This document shows, in pieces, positions 1-30,931 of a stretch of DNA of 30,931 nucleotides. The notes below the pieces were generated by a model that ran no database searches, was not told where the DNA came from, and worked only from the letters and a program-made list of their open reading frames with translations. Every line of letters begins with the position of its first letter. Position 1 is the first letter of the stretch. The DNA lies in IMG/VR virus record IMGVR_UViG_3300033996_000459, positions 1 through 30,931 of that record. The stretch is one strand, 5' to 3'. This DNA is from a virus. Made by a program: the position numbers and the translations under genes.

Positions 1-126
1 ATTAATTTTCGTTTCATTTGGTGGCAAGCTATGGCGATACTTCCGCTTCCTAAATGGGTATCTAAAATCAAATCCCCTTCACTTGTGTAGTTATCTAAAA
101 CCCATCTGTATAATTTAACTGGTTTT
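1..126. repeat. Left copy of the contig terminal direct repeat
   Basis: Bases 1-126 are identical to 30803-30928. The repeat lies inside the methyltransferase coding sequence and has no att-site or transposon character. The simplest reading is assembler overlap of a circular, or circularly permuted and terminally redundant, genome of about 30,802 bp. After position 126 the two copies differ for the three bases that remain at the right end (tgt here, aga there), probably read error or strain variation at a contig tip. Confidence 0.95.
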
Positions 127-611
127 TGTGTTGGGTGTATTTTACCGCCTTCTTCTACCATTGCAGAATAGTGTTTGAATATTCGTAAGTTTTTACCTTT
201 TCGCACCCAAGCAAGCTCGCCTTCAGCAAAACTTAAGTTTGGGTTTTTTTTATCCCACAAAAGCCAATGAGGTGTAGGCGGTAAATGTTCAGTAAAATAA
301 TTGCCACCCCACACAATTTGATTTTCAGATACCCTAAATAGTTCGGCAAAATACTCCTCTGTTGGTATTGCACTATCCCAATCCTTATCCTTGCTAAATT
401 TGTGCTTACCGCTTCCCATTGTCATTTTGCCTGCATTTATCCCGTAAGGCGGGTCAACAATTGCCACCTTAAAGTGATTATCTCCATAGCTTCGTAAGGC
501 TTGCAAACTATCCCCGTGTATCAATTCAATTCCGTTCTTTGAAACCGCACCAGCACATAACACGGGTTTTGCGTCATTGGGGGTTTCGTTTTTCAAATCA
601 AGTTCTGTCAT
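1..611 (-). CDS. DNA adenine methyltransferase, beta-type (N-terminal and central part; continues at 30802-30721)
   Basis: Likely transfers a methyl group from SAM to adenine N6 in phage DNA. Joined across the circular junction, the gene is 230 codons plus stop. Motif IV DPPYG is at residues 53-57, a TQKP stretch at 161-164, and the SAM-binding motif DTHLGSGS at 184-191; motif IV preceding motif I is the beta-class order. The start chosen is the ATG at 611-609, the only ATG ahead of the conserved core. Residues 1-18 are encoded by the attC-like site at 547-690, so the leader is not part of the enzyme fold. The gene follows the exonuclease in the same direction, about 70 bp after its stop, and looks like cargo of a cassette. 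Target specificity cannot be read from sequence. Protection from host restriction is the likely role, by inference. Confidence 0.9.
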   Translation of the reverse strand, partial: MTELDLKNETPNDAKPVLCAGAVSKNGIELIHGDSLQALRSYGDNHFKVAIVDPPYGINAGKMTMGSGKHKFSKDKDWDSAIPTEEYFAELFRVSENQIVWGGNYFTEHLPPTPHWLLWDKKNPNLSFAEGELAWVRKGKNLRIFKHYSAMVEEGGKIHPTQKPVKLYRWVLDNYTSEGDLILDTHLGSGSIAIACHQMKRKL

Positions 612-690
612 ATAATTAAATTTAGTTTTTCAAATGAGCTTTAGTGCTGGAAATCCCCAACGAACGCAAAGCCCGAAACCGTTAGCGCAC
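547..690. repeat. attC-like imperfect palindrome A
   Basis: The left arm on the plus strand (553-587) runs GCACATAAC, six bases, TTTGCGTCA, TTGGGG, GTTTC. The right arm read on the minus strand (688-650) runs GCGCTAAC, ten bases, TTTGCGTTCG, TTGGGG, ATTTC. The arms are near-perfect inverted copies with one extra base in the inner arm and an unpaired asymmetric spacer, the layout of an integron attC site (R''-spacer-L'' loop L'-spacer-R'). The loop (588-649) contains the methyltransferase ATG. The outer right box GTTAGCG overlaps the exonuclease stop codon. Site B has the same 6/10-base asymmetry. Confidence 0.6.
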
Positions 691-1539
691 ATACCCGCTC
701 ATCAACTCATCAAAGTAATTCCGTGCAAGTGTAACGTGTTCTTTTACCTTTTCGCGGTCGGATTCTGTGAGGTCAACTCGGAACGTCTTAACACGCGCCC
801 AATCTGGTAAGTGGTCGAAGTTGTGCATTTCGCGCACTTGTTCAATAAACGATTCATCGGGTTGTCCTTCGTTACCTGATTCCTTCCAAAGTTTCCACGC
901 TTCATTAACAATCAGTTGTTCAGGTGTGTTTTCAATCGAAAAACAAACGTACCAATGATCAAACCCCGACATCATTGCGTATCTTTTCGCCTGCCATTCG
1001 TAACGGTTAAACGAACTTTTCGCAGCCTCTTTTAAGTCCTTTGCGAATAACGGAAATGTGTCATCTGAAAAGCTGCACTTTGCATCGAATCCGAAACGTG
1101 CGTTCGTGTAGATTGCATCCGGGTGACCGTATCCGTATTGGTCACTCAATTCAATGCCTAACTTGTTAGCATTTAGCGGTGCATTCCATCCGTTGACCTT
1201 TGCGATTCGTGCCAAAGCCATATTTTCAAGTTGCTTTCCTTTCTCAACGTACTTATTCGATAGGTGCATTTTTGAAGTGCCACGAACTTCCGAATTGAAA
1301 TAATCCTTTACAAGCGTTTTTGCAGTTTCTGATAGTTCGGGCAGTGCATCGCGTTTAGCCACCAATCGGTCACGCTCATTCGCTTGATTTTCGGTCAGCT
1401 TAATCTTTGTCATGTAGTCACGAAGAGTTATCTCCTGCTTTTCCGTGAGGCTGTTCTTTGTGAGCGAACCCATTAAATCTCCGAAGTTGTAGGTACGGAA
1501 CATCAAGTCCGCACCTTTGATATCTGTATTGTGTGTCAT
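682..1539 (-). CDS. Lambda-exonuclease/YqaJ-like recombination nuclease
   Basis: A PD-(D/E)xK family nuclease of the viral recombinase type. It should resect double-stranded DNA ends to give the single strands that the adjacent RecT protein anneals. The catalytic stretch is visible: GHPD with Asp near residue 141, FDAK with Asp 152 and Lys 154, and downstream a Tyr/Gln-rich helix (YEWQAKRYAMMSG) typical of lambda Exo/YqaJ. I chose the ATG at 1539 rather than an in-frame TTG nine bases upstream, because the ATG lies one base after the recT stop. The length (285 aa) is ordinary for the family. Its stop codon is embedded in the outer box of attC-like site A, so the cassette array is inserted exactly at the end of this gene. 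Confidence 0.85.
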   Translation of the reverse strand: MTHNTDIKGADLMFRTYNFGDLMGSLTKNSLTEKQEITLRDYMTKIKLTENQANERDRLVAKRDALPELSETAKTLVKDYFNSEVRGTSKMHLSNKYVEKGKQLENMALARIAKVNGWNAPLNANKLGIELSDQYGYGHPDAIYTNARFGFDAKCSFSDDTFPLFAKDLKEAAKSSFNRYEWQAKRYAMMSGFDHWYVCFSIENTPEQLIVNEAWKLWKESGNEGQPDESFIEQVREMHNFDHLPDWARVKTFRVDLTESDREKVKEHVTLARNYFDELMSGYVR

Positions 1540-1540
1540 C

Positions 1541-2362
1541 CTATCCAAATTTAATTAGTTGTTCATCCGTTACCGTGTACGTGGTTTGAATCTGTGTAAG
1601 CGTTGCGCCTTGTTCGATTAATGCAGCTACTTGTTCATCCGTAATTGTTGGTAACTGTTCTGCATTCGGCTCGCTTGCATCGATGTACTCCACATCTAGC
1701 GTTTCAGCATCTTTAATCACCGCTTGGTCTGCGATTGTTGCCGTCTGCATTTCGATTGACAAGATACCCCACTTTGAAAGCGTATTCTTTAGCACTGTCT
1801 TTTTCGCCATTGCTACTGGATCACTTTTCCAAACACCACCACCGTAAGTCTTACTAAATCTCTTTGCGTGTTTCTCAACGTCTGCAACTGACCAATAGGA
1901 AGTTTTCTCAAAGCCGTTCAATAGTTTGAAATAAGCAACGTACCCAACGATTTTACCACTCGGTTCTTGAGTGAAGTCTGCATCTAGTTCCTCAGTCAAT
2001 CGGTTAAATGACTTGAATTGATTCTCGTAAACCTCAACAACGTTGATTGCCTTGTATTGCCCTGTGCGATTTGCAAGCTGCACAAGTCCTTTCCACCCAA
2101 TTTGAAACTGTGCCTGACCTCCGTATGGAACAATCCACGCAAAGCCTAATGAATTGTTAATAGGCAAATCTAAAGTGGCTGCAACCGCTGCGCAATTATA
2201 CACGCTTTCTGGCGTTGCTTTCTGCAATAGGTTGTTATTATTCACAACTTGCAGAACAGACGTTACAAATCCGTTTGCCTTTTTACCAAGCAGTTCCTCG
2301 AACTTGCTTTTTACCGCATCCTTTGCGAAGAATTGCTTTACTGTAATCTGATTTTGACTCAT
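1541..2362 (-). CDS. recT: RecT single-strand annealing protein
   Basis: A RecT/Redbeta-type recombinase that anneals complementary single strands during phage recombination and replication. The 273-aa protein carries the family's recognisable core: the N-terminal ATPESVYNCAAVAATLDLPIN segment (around residues 49-70), FQIGWKGLVQLANRTGQY (around 87-104) and a Lys/Trp-rich segment near residues 170-190 (GVWKSDPVAMAKKTVLKNTL). The variable, acidic C-terminus is typical. It is the first gene of a two-gene module with the exonuclease, whose ATG starts one base past this stop. A TAnnTTTG box and the shared upstream repeat at 2384-2453 probably drive it. Confidence 0.93.
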   Translation of the reverse strand: MSQNQITVKQFFAKDAVKSKFEELLGKKANGFVTSVLQVVNNNNLLQKATPESVYNCAAVAATLDLPINNSLGFAWIVPYGGQAQFQIGWKGLVQLANRTGQYKAINVVEVYENQFKSFNRLTEELDADFTQEPSGKIVGYVAYFKLLNGFEKTSYWSVADVEKHAKRFSKTYGGGVWKSDPVAMAKKTVLKNTLSKWGILSIEMQTATIADQAVIKDAETLDVEYIDASEPNAEQLPTITDEQVAALIEQGATLTQIQTTYTVTDEQLIKFG

Positions 2363-4696: not shown

Positions 4697-4994
4697 TAAA
4701 CTCGTTTCCTTTTTGTACGATTTCTTTTGTTAACACTATCTTGTTAATGTAGCGATCGTCAATGCCGTACTTTTTAACGATGCAATCAATCGTTTGTTTT
4801 GTGGCGTTGTCTAGGTCGCTCAACTTTGAACTGAACCCGAAGTGAAGATGTACCTCTGAAATGCTTTCTAAAGTCACGTTAGGTAGTAATAAAAGCATAT
4901 CACGCTGAAACTTTACATAGGCAGGGGTTTTAAACCTTTTTCCCTGCCATGCTTGGTTAACTGATAGCGGTTTAATCGGTAGCCTCGCTTTCAT
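4677..4994 (-). CDS. rusA: RusA-type Holliday junction resolvase
   Basis: A 105-aa RusA-family endonuclease, which as a dimer cleaves four-way junctions made during recombination and replication. The signature is SDLDNATKQTIDCIVKKYGIDD at about residues 59-80. It contains the metal-binding Asp cluster (D60, D62, D70, D79/D80) and ends with the typical RYINKIVLTKE segment. The N-terminal LPIKPLSVNQAW motif also matches the family. The length is normal. It overlaps the methyltransferase gene upstream by 23 bp and is the last gene of that two-gene operon. Confidence 0.92.
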   Translation of the reverse strand: MKARLPIKPLSVNQAWQGKRFKTPAYVKFQRDMLLLLPNVTLESISEVHLHFGFSSKLSDLDNATKQTIDCIVKKYGIDDRYINKIVLTKEIVQKGNEFIDIQIF

Positions 4995-5808
4995 CTATTG
5001 AATCAAATAATAATGCGCCTTGCTTTTTAATTTCAGTCGGACTATATCCAAGTTCTGATACTTCTTTTTTAATTGTCAAAGCCGTGTTTATCAAATCTGT
5101 TGCAGCAGAATGAAATTCTTTTTTAATCTCAAACCCATAAGCCTTTCTATTAAGTTCAATAGCCGCTAAAAGAGTAGATCCACTACCCGCACAAGGATCT
5201 ATTACAACATCACCTTCATCTGTAAAAATTTCTATTAACTTTTTCAGCAAATCTATTGGTTTCTGAGTAGGGTGTATTTTTGGTGTTTTGGTGTCTTTAG
5301 TCCAATCAATGCAGTTAAAAATCATTTTGCCTTTATTATTAAATTTGGGTAGTTTTTCTCGATAAAACAAAATGCCATATTCACAATTCCCCACAATCTT
5401 CATGTTAGCCTTTAGTACTTGAGCTGAAAAATTCTTTCTAAAAACTAGGTTGATATAATTGTTTAAACCATATCTTTTTGCAAGTTCTATAAGTTGAAAT
5501 TGTTGTTCAAACTCACAAAACACAATCATGCATGGAGCTTGTCCTTTCTCTTTTGGTTCTTTCTTTAGCATTGTGCTGCAAAAGTGCATAAATTCAGCTG
5601 GTCTAAAATCTTTATCCGTATCAAAAAACTCTTTTCCAGCTAATGCGCTTTCACCATTTTTATTATCTCCACCCTCATACCAACTAGGATTTGAGGCATA
5701 AGCATTATTTCCAAGATTGTAAGGTATATCAGCAATAATAAGCTGAGCTTTTGGTATTTGATACGTTTTAAAATTTTGGAAATGATCTCTGTAAAGTTCC
5801 GCTTTCAT
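4972..5808 (-). CDS. Site-specific DNA methyltransferase (N6-adenine or N4-cytosine, beta-type)
   Basis: A 278-aa SAM-dependent DNA methyltransferase. Motif IV is DIPYNLG at residues 27-33, a DPPY variant in which Ile replaces the first Pro. IHPTQKPIDLL follows, and the SAM-binding motif DPCAGSGS is at 204-211, giving beta-type order. The C-terminal ~45 residues are a Lys/Glu-rich tail outside the catalytic fold. It is unrelated in detail to the cassette methyltransferase at the contig junction, so the phage has two. It heads a two-gene operon with RusA under a promoter carrying the shared upstream repeat. Modification of phage DNA against host restriction is the likely role. Confidence 0.9.
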   Translation of the reverse strand: MKAELYRDHFQNFKTYQIPKAQLIIADIPYNLGNNAYASNPSWYEGGDNKNGESALAGKEFFDTDKDFRPAEFMHFCSTMLKKEPKEKGQAPCMIVFCEFEQQFQLIELAKRYGLNNYINLVFRKNFSAQVLKANMKIVGNCEYGILFYREKLPKFNNKGKMIFNCIDWTKDTKTPKIHPTQKPIDLLKKLIEIFTDEGDVVIDPCAGSGSTLLAAIELNRKAYGFEIKKEFHSAATDLINTALTIKKEVSELGYSPTEIKKQGALLFDSIDESEATD

Positions 5809-27485: not shown

Positions 27486-28667
27486 TTAGAATGATTCGTA
27501 TGCCGAGCCACCGTAAAACGCTGACTTGATTTCCATTGCCGCATACCTCGCAGCATCCATTGCATCGTCATTTTTCTTGTCGATTTGTTCCGAGATAATT
27601 CCGTTCATGACCTTGCGCTTGTATAGTCTGTTTTCACGTTGGATGTTAATTGAATCTGCGTGTACATAGACTTTCATTTGGTTAAGGAAATTGATTCCCG
27701 CCTCCACGCTTTTGTCTGCTTTCAGAACGTAAAACCCCGCGTTATCCAAATCCTCAATCATTTCGGGACGTGCATAGTCACACATGATTTCGACCTCACG
27801 TGAAACCTCTTTTTTGCGCATTTCGTCAATTAGTGCGTTGGATGTTAACCCTGATTTGTAAATGACTTCCTCCAAAAACAACTCATCTTCCCAAAACCAA
27901 ACCTTAACAAGTGCCGTAGGGTGCTGAAAACCGAAGTCTAACCCATAAACAAACCGTGTAAATCGCTCAGGTCTTTCGCTCAGTATTTCCCAACGTGGAT
28001 AAACCGCCTCTTGAAGCATACCAACCTCGCCTAATCCGTATACTTGCCACCAATTCCACCAATAACCTTTCGTACCGTTGCGCTCTTCTGCTTCGGCTTT
28101 TGCTTTACGCTGCATAAGGTTGTTTAATACGGCTTCGGGAATACCCTCGTTGTCTAAGTAGGTCAGTTTCAAAAACTCCGAATCTGGTTGGGTAAGTATT
28201 TCAGTATGCGCCCAGAATTCCATATCGGCATTAAAGTCCATCCACACTTCATTTGATCGGATAATAAGAGCATCCGCTATTCCATAGTCGATATGATTTG
28301 CCTCGTTTAAGAAAAGGATGTCACGCTTTCCCGCTGCTTTCGCTTTACCCACTGAATCGAACGATTTGAATTGCATGGTTGACCCGTTGAGAGCCTTGTA
28401 AACCATATCCGTGCCATTCCATTGAGCATCGTTCCATCTCCCCTCATCCATCATGAAGTTTTTGAAGATGTCAATACAACCATCTTTCAAAGCGGGCAAC
28501 GTTTCAGCCACGACCGTGATTTTGGTGCGTGGCTTACTCAGTGCTTTGTCGTAAAGTATCGGAATAATGCCGTATGTCTTTCCGGACGATGTACTCCCTT
28601 GAATGACCTTTTTGTTGCCTGTCATTCGAAGCATCTTCTTTACGGCTGTTGTTAATTGGAATGGCAT
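27486..28667 (-). CDS. terL: Terminase large subunit
   Basis: The ATP-driven DNA packaging motor and headful/cos nuclease, 393 aa. Walker A is GSTSSGKT at residues 24-31, Walker B LFLNEAN at 118-124. The nuclease domain has the Asp series YGLDFGF (D244), CDYARPE (D297) and NDDAMDAARYA (D367/368, D371) in the RNase H-like order. It is short for a terminase, lacking an N-terminal extension. It overlaps the small subunit by one base (TAATG). Confidence 0.95.
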   Translation of the reverse strand: MPFQLTTAVKKMLRMTGNKKVIQGSTSSGKTYGIIPILYDKALSKPRTKITVVAETLPALKDGCIDIFKNFMMDEGRWNDAQWNGTDMVYKALNGSTMQFKSFDSVGKAKAAGKRDILFLNEANHIDYGIADALIIRSNEVWMDFNADMEFWAHTEILTQPDSEFLKLTYLDNEGIPEAVLNNLMQRKAKAEAEERNGTKGYWWNWWQVYGLGEVGMLQEAVYPRWEILSERPERFTRFVYGLDFGFQHPTALVKVWFWEDELFLEEVIYKSGLTSNALIDEMRKKEVSREVEIMCDYARPEMIEDLDNAGFYVLKADKSVEAGINFLNQMKVYVHADSINIQRENRLYKRKVMNGIISEQIDKKNDDAMDAARYAAMEIKSAFYGGSAYESF

Positions 28668-29107
28668 TAATCATCCAATTTAAAGATGCGAGGTTCTTGT
28701 TGGATAGTGTGTTCTTGTCGGTCTGTGTAGCCATCGAAACGGGAAATTAACCCCTCTTTGAACTGACCAACAGCAGCACCATCGAAACGGTCTTGCTTTG
28801 CTTCCTTTCTCATGTGCGTGACTATTCCCCCGAAATCATCATACAACCCATCCTTATTCTCGATGTAATTATCCATTGTTCCTACTCCCCAACCTTTCTG
28901 ATTGACAGTCCAAATGATGAACGCATCAAGTGTAAGAGGGGGGTAATGCACCATGTAGATTACCTCCCCCGTTTTTTGGTTAAGAGTTGGAACGCTTCTT
29001 CCTTGGTTTTTTCGCCACTGTTTGTGTTCCTCCCACATTTGGAGTAGTTCCTCCGCTGTTTTCAGTTTCCGTGTCGGATGTATTGGTTTTATCTTCCCCA
29101 TTTTCAA
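28667..29107 (-). CDS. terS: Terminase small subunit, gp3-like
   Basis: A 146-aa DNA-packaging protein of the gp3-like group. The N-terminal HPTRKLKTAEELLQMWEEHKQW and the C-terminal motif KEAKQDRFDGAAVGQFKEGLISR (around 105-127), with YTDRQEH, are characteristic. It should recognise the packaging site and regulate TerL. The ORF overlaps the preceding 89-aa ORF by 128 bp. A later Met (residue 24) would shorten the overlap but would cut the family's N-terminal helix, so I kept the longer form. Directly coupled to terL. Confidence 0.8.
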   Translation of the reverse strand: MKMGKIKPIHPTRKLKTAEELLQMWEEHKQWRKNQGRSVPTLNQKTGEVIYMVHYPPLTLDAFIIWTVNQKGWGVGTMDNYIENKDGLYDDFGGIVTHMRKEAKQDRFDGAAVGQFKEGLISRFDGYTDRQEHTIQQEPRIFKLDD

Positions 29108-29722: not shown

Positions 29723-29913
29723 TCCATGAACTGATTAAAGAAGATTTTTCTTTCGGATGAACAACACGATTTTTGTTCGATGACTTCGCCCGTGTAGCGT
29801 TGGTAAATGTCGACCAATCTACGGTTGACAGTTGAGCCGTACTTGACAAGGTCACGGAGGCTCTGGACACCTTCTACATACGTTTGGTCATCTTGACTAA
29901 TAATAGCGTGCAT
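29701..29913 (-). CDS. 70-aa Cys-containing phage protein, unknown function
   Basis: I used the ATG at 29913; the frame is open to 29988, but that part is a shadow of the membrane protein gene. YVEGVQSLRDLVKYGSTVNRRLVDIYQRYTGE is helical and is followed by SCCSSERKIFFNQFMEWY. This kind of small protein with paired Cys and an Arg often precedes the terminase in Bacteroidetes phages. The genes before and after overlap it by 40 and 22 bp. Confidence 0.58.
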   Translation of the reverse strand: MHAIISQDDQTYVEGVQSLRDLVKYGSTVNRRLVDIYQRYTGEVIEQKSCCSSERKIFFNQFMEWYNSIT

Positions 29914-30113
29914 ATTGCTGATGTAATTGCGAGGTAAATGTTTCCGGTCATTGCGAGTGCCAACCAAAACCCAACGCACTTCGGACATTGGATGTGGTCA
30001 ATAATCAACTGAACAATCACAAAATCGCTTTGAATTTTCTCAGAAAGCCAAGTGATTGGTGAGAATGAACACCAAAGCCATGCGATAAGTATTGCGTGTA
30101 TCGTTGTAATCAT
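29874..30113 (-). CDS. Small membrane protein with a CPKCVGFW motif
   Basis: 79 aa from the ATG at 30113. Two or three hydrophobic stretches (residues ~2-22, 31-41, 48-74) flank the motif CPKCVGFW at 43-50. It resembles DUF1360-like membrane proteins, in which a C-x-x-C-x-GFW segment connects two membrane helices. The first gene of the late region, it starts about 75 bases after the TATGTTTG box at 30202-30195. Role unknown; a membrane or zinc-binding function is conceivable. Confidence 0.58.
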   Translation of the reverse strand: MITTIHAILIAWLWCSFSPITWLSEKIQSDFVIVQLIIDHIQCPKCVGFWLALAMTGNIYLAITSAICTLLLVKMTKRM

Positions 30114-30194
30114 GCTGCTAATATACAACTTTTTGGAAAAACAAAACCCCACTTTTCAGCAGGGCAATGTCATTATCTAAACTTTACTATTGTA

Positions 30195-30210: not shown

Positions 30211-30271
30211 CCGCTAACAAAGCGCAAGCGGCATTAAAACGACCGCCTGCACGACTGTTAGCAGAAATGCC
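30211..30271. repeat. attC-like imperfect palindrome C
   Basis: The outer boxes CGCTAACA (30212-30219) and TGTTAGC (30256-30262) pair perfectly over seven bases. An unpaired spacer follows, then an inner stem of about 9 bp (GCAAGCGG against CCGCCTGC, with an extra base), and a loop of about 11 bases. This compact hairpin is the simplest of the three sites and fits an integron attC fold. It lies 8 bp past the stop of the 127-aa gene, at the end of the array. Confidence 0.6.
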
Positions 30272-30586
30272 TACCAGACATCTTCGCTAAATAAATACGT
30301 TTTTTCAACTTTGATTTGCCCACTTTTAAAAGCTATCTCGGCAGCTTCGGCACGTTCGACAAATCTGTTATCGTTGGTTAAAAATCCTTGCTCATATTCA
30401 CCTGCCGAATTTTCACCGTGAACAACTGTACGCAACCCCATTGTTGCTTGCATTTGTGCAATTATGTTCCCGTGCCTCCATCCGCACAAGACAATACCCT
30501 TATCACAATTCTTTGGAAGCAATCGCATAGTGGGCAAATCTTTGTACCAAATGGCAGAACATAGCAAATAAGGCACTTCTGCTAAC
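30257..30586 (-). mobile_element. Cassette-like unit 2, carrying the 127-aa gene
   Basis: The 15 bases at 30257-30271 (GTTAGCAGAAATGCC) match in reverse complement those at 30572-30586 (GGCACTTCTGCTAAC) at 14 of 15 positions. These are the outer ends of neighbouring attC-like sites C and B. Complementarity between ends of one unit, rather than within one site, is the integron cassette rule. The first unit, bounded by GTTATGTGCAAGTGC (30707-30721) and GCACCAGCACATAAC (547-561) with 13/15 matches, carries the methyltransferase. No integrase is present. Confidence 0.55.
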
Positions 30587-30654
30587 AAGTGTTTTGCGTC
30601 AGGCGGGGCGACCTGCCCTGCATCAGCATTTGTGGTTAATTCATCTGCATTCAT
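30271..30654 (-). CDS. Conserved phage protein of unknown function (cassette cargo)
   Basis: A 127-aa protein. Residues ~30-127 form a conserved unit I know from unrelated phages: CSAIWYKDLPTMRLLPKNCDKGIVLCGWRHGNIIAQM, then GLRTVVHGENSAGEYEQGFLTNDNRFVERAEAAEIA and a C-terminal FSEDVW. Function unknown. Residues 1-26 (starting MNADELTTNADAGQ) are encoded by attC-like site B and are not part of the conserved unit; the next in-frame Met is deep inside it, so the start must lie in the site. The gene follows the methyltransferase by about 65 bp in the same direction. Confidence 0.82.
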   Translation of the reverse strand: MNADELTTNADAGQVAPPDAKHLLAEVPYLLCSAIWYKDLPTMRLLPKNCDKGIVLCGWRHGNIIAQMQATMGLRTVVHGENSAGEYEQGFLTNDNRFVERAEAAEIAFKSGQIKVEKTYLFSEDVW

Positions 30655-30721
30655 TCTATTGAAGTTTAGTGATTATAAATCCCGCCCGAACGCAAAGCAC
30701 TCGGACGTTATGTGCAAGTGC
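30572..30721. repeat. attC-like imperfect palindrome B
   Basis: The left arm on the plus strand: CTGCTAAC, six bases, TTTGCGTCA, GGCGGG (30579-30608). The right arm on the minus strand: GCACATAAC, ten bases, TTTGCGTTCG, GGCGGG (30715-30681). The 6/10-base spacer asymmetry and the single extra inner base are the same as in site A. The loop (30609-30680) holds the ATG of the 127-aa gene. A short conserved CACTAAA-CT-CA stretch occurs in the loops of both A and B on the minus strand. Confidence 0.6.
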
Positions 30722-30931
30722 TACCATAGTGCTGTTTGACGAGTTTGTTCTTCAAATCGTTTGCAAGCCTTTTGGTAATACTCTGCATCAATTTCGTAAG
30801 CTATTAATTTTCGTTTCATTTGGTGGCAAGCTATGGCGATACTTCCGCTTCCTAAATGGGTATCTAAAATCAAATCCCCTTCACTTGTGTAGTTATCTAA
30901 AACCCATCTGTATAATTTAACTGGTTTTAGA
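30721..30931 (-). CDS. DNA adenine methyltransferase, C-terminal part (continues from 1-611)
   Basis: The right end carries the final part of the gene whose start is at 611. Only 30721-30802 is new; 30803-30928 repeats bases 1-126. The new segment encodes YEIDAEYYQKACKRFEEQ, the usual helix after motif I of phage beta-type adenine methyltransferases, and ends TALW before the TAG. Together the parts give 693 bases in frame. The last three bases (30929-30931) differ from the left copy. Confidence 0.9.
   Translation of the reverse strand, partial: LKPVKLYRWVLDNYTSEGDLILDTHLGSGSIAIACHQMKRKLIAYEIDAEYYQKACKRFEEQTRQTALW
30803..30928. repeat. Right copy of the contig terminal direct repeat
   Basis: Identical to bases 1-126, and reads continuously into the methyltransferase. 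Supports closing the contig into a circle. Confidence 0.95.

Follow-up and report, generated by a model that had tools for sequence, protein, structure and literature searches.

A probable integrase-less, integron-like cassette array in a Bacteroidota phage, with genes that appear to start inside attC-like hairpins

A two-cassette array in a circular phage genome

The stretch of DNA analysed here (30,931 nucleotides; hereafter the window) is a circular phage genome of ~30.8 kb (about 30,802 bp), and its sequence very probably includes a two-cassette, integrase-less integron array of the CALIN type in a Bacteroidota phage, built from flipped units in which a hairpin precedes its gene and the start of the gene lies in the hairpin loop. 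Integrons are known mainly as a bacterial gene-swapping device. Circularity is indicated by positions 30803-30931, a copy of 1-129 that departs from it by two mismatches, both at the extreme end. The structural and packaging genes of the window were assigned with PHROGs and Pfam, and the order along the minus strand is exonuclease, site A, methyltransferase, site B, 127-aa ORF, site C, 92-aa ORF and terminase genes, as listed below.

547..690 (core 684-558), minus strand: site A, long attC-like hairpin (covariance model R2, 134 bits, E 1e-33); junction variable among sister phages
30572..30721 (core 30710-30583), minus strand: site B, long attC-like hairpin (R2, 106 bits, E 8e-26)
30211..30271 (core 30260-30215), minus strand: site C, compact attC-like hairpin with the constant loop TCGTTTTAATG (R1, 54 bits, E 3e-14)
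1..611, minus strand: N6/N4 DNA methyltransferase ORF, N-terminal part (ORF list; Pfam N6_N4_Mtase, 6e-15)
30721..30931, minus strand: same methyltransferase, C-terminal part across the circular junction (ORF list; terminal repeat 30803-30931/1-129)
30271..30654, minus strand: 127-aa ORF, phrog_839, function unknown (PHROGs, 2e-20)
682..1548, minus strand: phage exonuclease, left flank of the array (phrog_5715, 5e-30)
29874..30152, minus strand: 92-aa ORF, right flank of the array, towards the terminase genes (ORF list; flank conserved in relatives)
30258..30707, minus strand: putative mobile unit of the 127-aa cassette, hairpin B plus gene, with ends at TAA|C (break test on homologous phage cassettes; absent in L005)
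681 down through the junction to 30708, minus strand: putative mobile unit of the methyltransferase cassette, including the upstream hairpin

An earlier note, made from the letters of the window, had described three imperfect palindromes and two one-gene units, all of which lie where it placed them. Its figures for complementarity between unit ends, 14/15 bases for 30257-30271 with 30572-30586 and 13/15 for 30707-30721 with 547-561, were reproduced on recomputation; within single sites the 15-base values are 4/15 (A), 7/15 (B) and 11/15 (C). The 14/15 pair stands out, the next best value being 11/15 among ~790 GTTA...TAAC pairs lying 250-1100 nt apart in this genome, a control that left out the 13/15 pair because it spans the circular junction.

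The covariance models R1 and R2 were built from the sites of other phages, with the window and its sisters left out, and an attC search with these models, of the kind that the note had proposed, recovered A, B and C at the scores given above. The sites share with attC an imperfect hairpin, conserved outer R boxes (AAC ... GTT) and a covarying stem. Three such sites with no integron integrase nearby correspond to a CALIN, which calls for two or more; a complete integron would have intI and attI, and the window gave no match to the integron integrase model TIGR02249. A search of the window against Rfam returned no match and no attC family, and BLAST against annotated phages returned none for one long hairpin and weak 25-nt matches only for site C.

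Families of attC-like sites

Long sites, to which A and B belong, are taken here as ~126 nt of the form TAAC-N6-GGCTTTGCGTTCG ... TGACGCAAAACCNNTGTTA. They are present in phages and in Bacteroidota chromosomes, and among the matches listed in a genome scan they came almost only from Bacteroidota. Further families comprise short sites of 75-96 nt and the compact C-type sites with their constant loop. The site alignments contain compensatory changes, with 95.3% and 97.4% of cells paired and 110 and 90 double-change cells versus 30 in shuffles. Pairing of the consensus arms leaves one extra unpaired base, which would lie on the arm beside the inferred crossover, whereas in classical attC sites the extrahelical bases belong to the L'' arm and so lie far from the crossover.

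The collection scans were motif-chosen, and the counts of sites and orientations refer to the matches listed (about 120 stretches). TerL was detected on 16 of 47 array contigs, some of them fragments, so that not all of these contigs are independently proven to be viral. In an unrelated phage contig (L173, 6974-7020) the C hairpin is almost unchanged and the R boxes differ (GAATAAC / GTTATAA); a search within 4 kb found no own-end partner for this C-type site.

Cassette turnover in sister phages

Relatives were gathered by TerL from IMG/VR, some with backbones that are ~88-90% identical. At the position of the array, the near relatives carry 0-3 different cassettes, and the breaks fall at the TAAC boxes. 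For example, an array is missing from L003 and L006, L004 has a single hairpin with a 46-aa ORF within its loop, L005 has the methyltransferase cassette alone and lacks the 127-aa unit, L018 has two other cassettes, and L171 has different ones again. Related phages with empty or different cassettes at the exonuclease/terminase junction, which the note had suggested looking for, therefore exist; the outcome that it named as speaking against cassettes, no attC-like signal and the same two genes everywhere, is not what these data show. All array carriers share an exonuclease end of ...GCTAAC and, behind the last cassette, the same site C, which is a resident site common to the sister phages (constant in L004, L005, L018 and L171). 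The insertion point is exact, between GCTAAC of the exonuclease and AGTCG of site C, and the ends of the methyltransferase cassette covary, reading TTATGTGC/GCACATAA in the window and TTACCTGC/GCAGGTAA in L005. In the mechanism that we propose, site C and the exonuclease end (CGCTAAC ... GTTAGCG) would together form a resident attC, and cassettes, each a hairpin and then a gene, would enter at its TAA|C, which reads G|TT on the opposite strand.

Several local features were also seen in these relatives. At 2870-3130 of L004 the 46-aa ORF is complete within the hairpin loop and is followed by only ~25 nt to the next R box. In L018 (7140-7760) a copy of the 10-mer GATGAGTTGA flanks the array on either side, which resembles a target duplication or a microhomology left by the array's original entry. 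The TerS region (window 28667-29107; L003 3779-5568; L005 9573-9972) has undergone whole-gene replacement between sister phages, and in L003 it comprises 1.8 kb that include a ParB-like frame as well as a tRNA-like stretch.

The mobile unit is a hairpin with its downstream gene

Own-end complementarity of 8-10 nt was found in 47 of 57-58 complete phage cassettes with long sites of the A/B type, in which complementarity within a site is mostly 4-5 nt. This is the integron rule: the R'' of an attC matches the start of the cassette to which it belongs, not that of the neighbouring one. Between homologous cassettes, identity reaches 0.97 over hairpin and gene, whereas in the 60-nt flanks it averages 0.29 and 0.27, close to chance; five phage contigs share one methyltransferase cassette, each with a different right neighbour. 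Therefore, as read from these sequence comparisons, the mobile unit is the hairpin plus the downstream gene, running from the C of one TAAC to the TAA of the next, with borders at G|TT and head-to-tail insertion. Two identical cassettes with different neighbours in the chromosome of the Bacteroidota bacterium SSA2 have the same unit borders as those of phages. Stop codons frequently overlap the next TAAC, and the stop codon of the exonuclease (TAA, 684-682) sits in the first R box of site A. The note's reading of the units as integron-type cassettes is supported; its gene-only unit gives way to one that consists of a hairpin and the gene that follows. Because homologous cassettes break at TAAC, a reading of the hairpins as terminators and nothing else was rejected.

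The exchange of hairpin-gene modules by ordinary homologous or illegitimate recombination, with hairpins that serve as terminators or RNA regulators, is an unlikely account of these patterns. Phage genomes are mosaic, two contigs (L294 and L295) resemble chimeras within a loop or a gene, and other positions near TerS vary without attC sites, all of which speaks for such exchange. Against it stand breaks at TAAC on both sides with near-random flanks, cassette starts that covary with their own ends and not with the neighbouring box, and unit borders equal to those of a bacterial array beside an integrase-like gene. Integron-type cassettes in an integrase-less, CALIN-like phage array, the central reading of the earlier note, agree with presence and absence among sisters, own-end complementarity and the covariance models.

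A candidate host recombinase

Integron integrase was absent from 19 of 20 array-bearing phage records, many of them fragments. The hosts carry a tyrosine recombinase that is intermediate between IntI and XerA. In SSA2 and L373 this candidate enzyme reaches 178 and 225 bits against the TIGR02249 cut-off of 265 and lacks the IntI-specific middle part, an IntI call requiring >265 bits and the IntI-specific insertion. The L373 gene (1153-2352) encodes an IntI-like recombinase of 399 aa with an N-terminal extension and lies downstream of an apparent recQ; related genes adjoin such sites in several Bacteroidota genomes. SSA2 (CP058707.1, ~3.49-3.98 Mb; L516-L530) has an attC-like array of ~0.5 Mb that resembles a chromosomal superintegron. 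The parts of this array that were covered hold 65 sites in one orientation throughout, and it ends 3.3 kb from an IntI/XerA-like gene (3,985,783-3,986,889, minus strand), with no sites beyond. In 8 of 20 further regions around such recombinase genes, long sites lie in the same stretch (<=20 kb). The position of the SSA2 array beside the recombinase gene, together with these eight regions, makes the host enzyme the likely mover of the phage cassettes, and we propose that an integron-type tyrosine recombinase of the host would act on folded single strands. Few complete integrons have been reported in Bacteroidota (PMC9024848), and the present data point to large integron-like arrays in their chromosomes beside an IntI/XerA-like enzyme.

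Less probable still than ordinary recombination is another hairpin-based mover, either a Xer/dif-type module or an IS200/IS605-like transposase acting in trans. The candidate host enzyme scores about equally with archaeal XerA and IntI and is without the IntI-specific part, which speaks for such a mover, but one hairpin per unit, complementary ends, head-to-tail order and GTT/AAC boxes are integron features, and no transposase was found among the ORFs of the window and no such element was seen.

Phage genes are flipped and start within their attC

Among the matches listed, the ORF on the GTTA side of Bacteroidota long sites is antisense in 92 cases, sense in one and absent in six, and its stop mostly falls within 20 nt of the box, as in the common order of ORF first and attC second. 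On viral contigs the ORF next to the site is sense in 107 of the matches listed and antisense in one, and at viral C-type sites 93 are sense and 3 antisense among those listed, so that ~200 of 204 listed phage genes run opposite to the bacterial orientation. An attC behind the 3' end of the ORF is thus what phage cassettes lack; this arrangement is usual in bacteria and is no absolute requirement for recombination. With the same right-arm pattern applied to both sets, a start codon lies within the hairpin loop at 62 of 65 phage long sites versus 2 of 92 bacterial ones among the matches listed (Fisher 2e-37), and one of the three phage exceptions resembles a homopolymer frameshift.

In the window, the methyltransferase ATG at 611 is inside the loop of site A and its leader MTELDLKNETPNDAKP runs through the L'/R' half, and the ATG of the 127-aa ORF at 30654 is inside the loop of site B, with the leader MNADELTTNADAGQVAPPDAKH running through the site. 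Indeed, in long phage sites the frame from the loop ATG continues through L'/R', so a gene with its start codon there would have a leader peptide encoded by half of the attC. Most cassette bodies have no ATG for tens of codons. Where the same stem differs by one base, the frame of the leader shifts (..APNDAKPLL.. versus ..APMTQNHCY..), matching different bodies. The region of the loop ATG is mostly unpaired by prediction (0.63 versus 0.26 at the R box), and we infer that this ATG is used in the cell.

Phage cassettes are thus built differently from bacterial ones, with the gene flipped relative to attC and attC at the 5' end. Long sites have the start codon and an A-rich upstream region in the hairpin loop, and we propose that translation would begin in attC, pass the L'/R' arm as a leader of 14-26 codons and enter the cargo, so that an inserted cassette would need only phage read-through transcription. 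In mRNA, attC hairpins impede translation of the cassette that follows, an effect that a short ORF within attC can relieve (PMC8876359); an in-loop start of the cargo itself may solve the same block for a read-through-dependent phage. The parts of this explanation that are read from sequence are the architecture, the precise gain and loss, the unit borders, the gene orientation and the covariation. We lean slightly towards a broader view, in which Bacteroidota phages share a cassette pool of their own, distinct from the bacterial one, whose flipped genes with attC-borne starts are self-translating anywhere and whose anti-restriction genes are exchanged via the IntI-like integrases of the hosts.

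That a phage merely captured ordinary bacterial chromosomal cassettes, the origin implied by the earlier note, is scarcely credible: the same long hairpin family does occur in Bacteroidota chromosomes, but the phage genes have the opposite orientation and in-loop starts, unlike chromosomal cassettes, and the 17-mer of the C-type loop is found in 1 of 395 Bacteroidota genomes versus at least 120 viral stretches.

Relation to known integrons

The note had thought phage arrays of this kind hardly described. CALINs in phages were however published in 2023 by Qi et al. (PMC9892861), some with cassettes that encode methyltransferases and with attC sites on which IntI1 acted in E. coli, so that the general claim is already known. 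Both sets comprise integrase-less attC arrays that carry DNA methyltransferases. In Polaribacter phage P12002L one of two tested sites recombined with attI1 through IntI1 in E. coli, and two other phage arrays are described there as typical in direction and that of P12002L as divergent (PMC9892861). In P12002L we find, between two methyltransferases, a C-type site whose loop is likewise TCGTTTTAATG, with the gene in the sense of the hairpin; a general hairpin scan of this genome at strict thresholds found nothing, and was discarded since the site is plain by eye. The available part of PMC9892861 reports no systematic flip, in-attC start, phage-type site families or sister-phage turnover, all of which are present here. 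The flip relative to bacterial cassettes and the start codon within the attC loop thus appear to be new, and no report of a gene flip or of coding attC sites was found in the open-licence papers searched.

The phage arrays resemble chromosomal integrons and superintegrons (Vibrio, VCR) in their ~126-nt sites, head-to-tail order, own-end complementarity and G|TT border, and the SSA2 array is a matching chromosomal counterpart. Unlike chromosomal integrons, they are without an integrase, showed no attI, have few cassettes, and carry genes that are reversed relative to attC with the start codon in the loop. Translation signals that counter attC hairpins from within recombination sites are also known from ORF-11/ORF-17 in attI1 and short attC ORFs, but these are separate short ORFs that work by termination-reinitiation, whereas phage cargo would have its own attC start and an in-frame fusion (PMC8876359). 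The data point to use of the integron recombination format at scale by the phages of a single bacterial phylum, in a re-engineered unit whose recombination site doubles as a translation start. If true, this would account for the odd leader (..P.DAKP.L..) common to unrelated phage proteins.

Cargo of the cassettes

Among 57 cassette proteins examined with Pfam, at least 26 are DNA methyltransferases (21 N6/N4 and 5 C5), and the remaining cargo includes HNH and one Lar restriction-alleviation protein. The cargo of the window, one methyltransferase and one phrog_839 protein of unknown function, is in keeping with this. The methyltransferases probably protect phage DNA from restriction, and it seems to be chiefly anti-restriction genes that phages share in their own cassette format. 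If so, the cassettes would be a concrete means for phages to trade methyltransferases and further counter-defence genes one unit at a time. At 4972-5808 the window encodes another N6/N4 DNA methyltransferase, for which the models place no flanking attC-like sites. The 127-aa ORF has relatives in Sphingomonas phage PAU and Tenacibaculum phage pT24, and Flavobacterium phage stinky9-1 carries a related methyltransferase.
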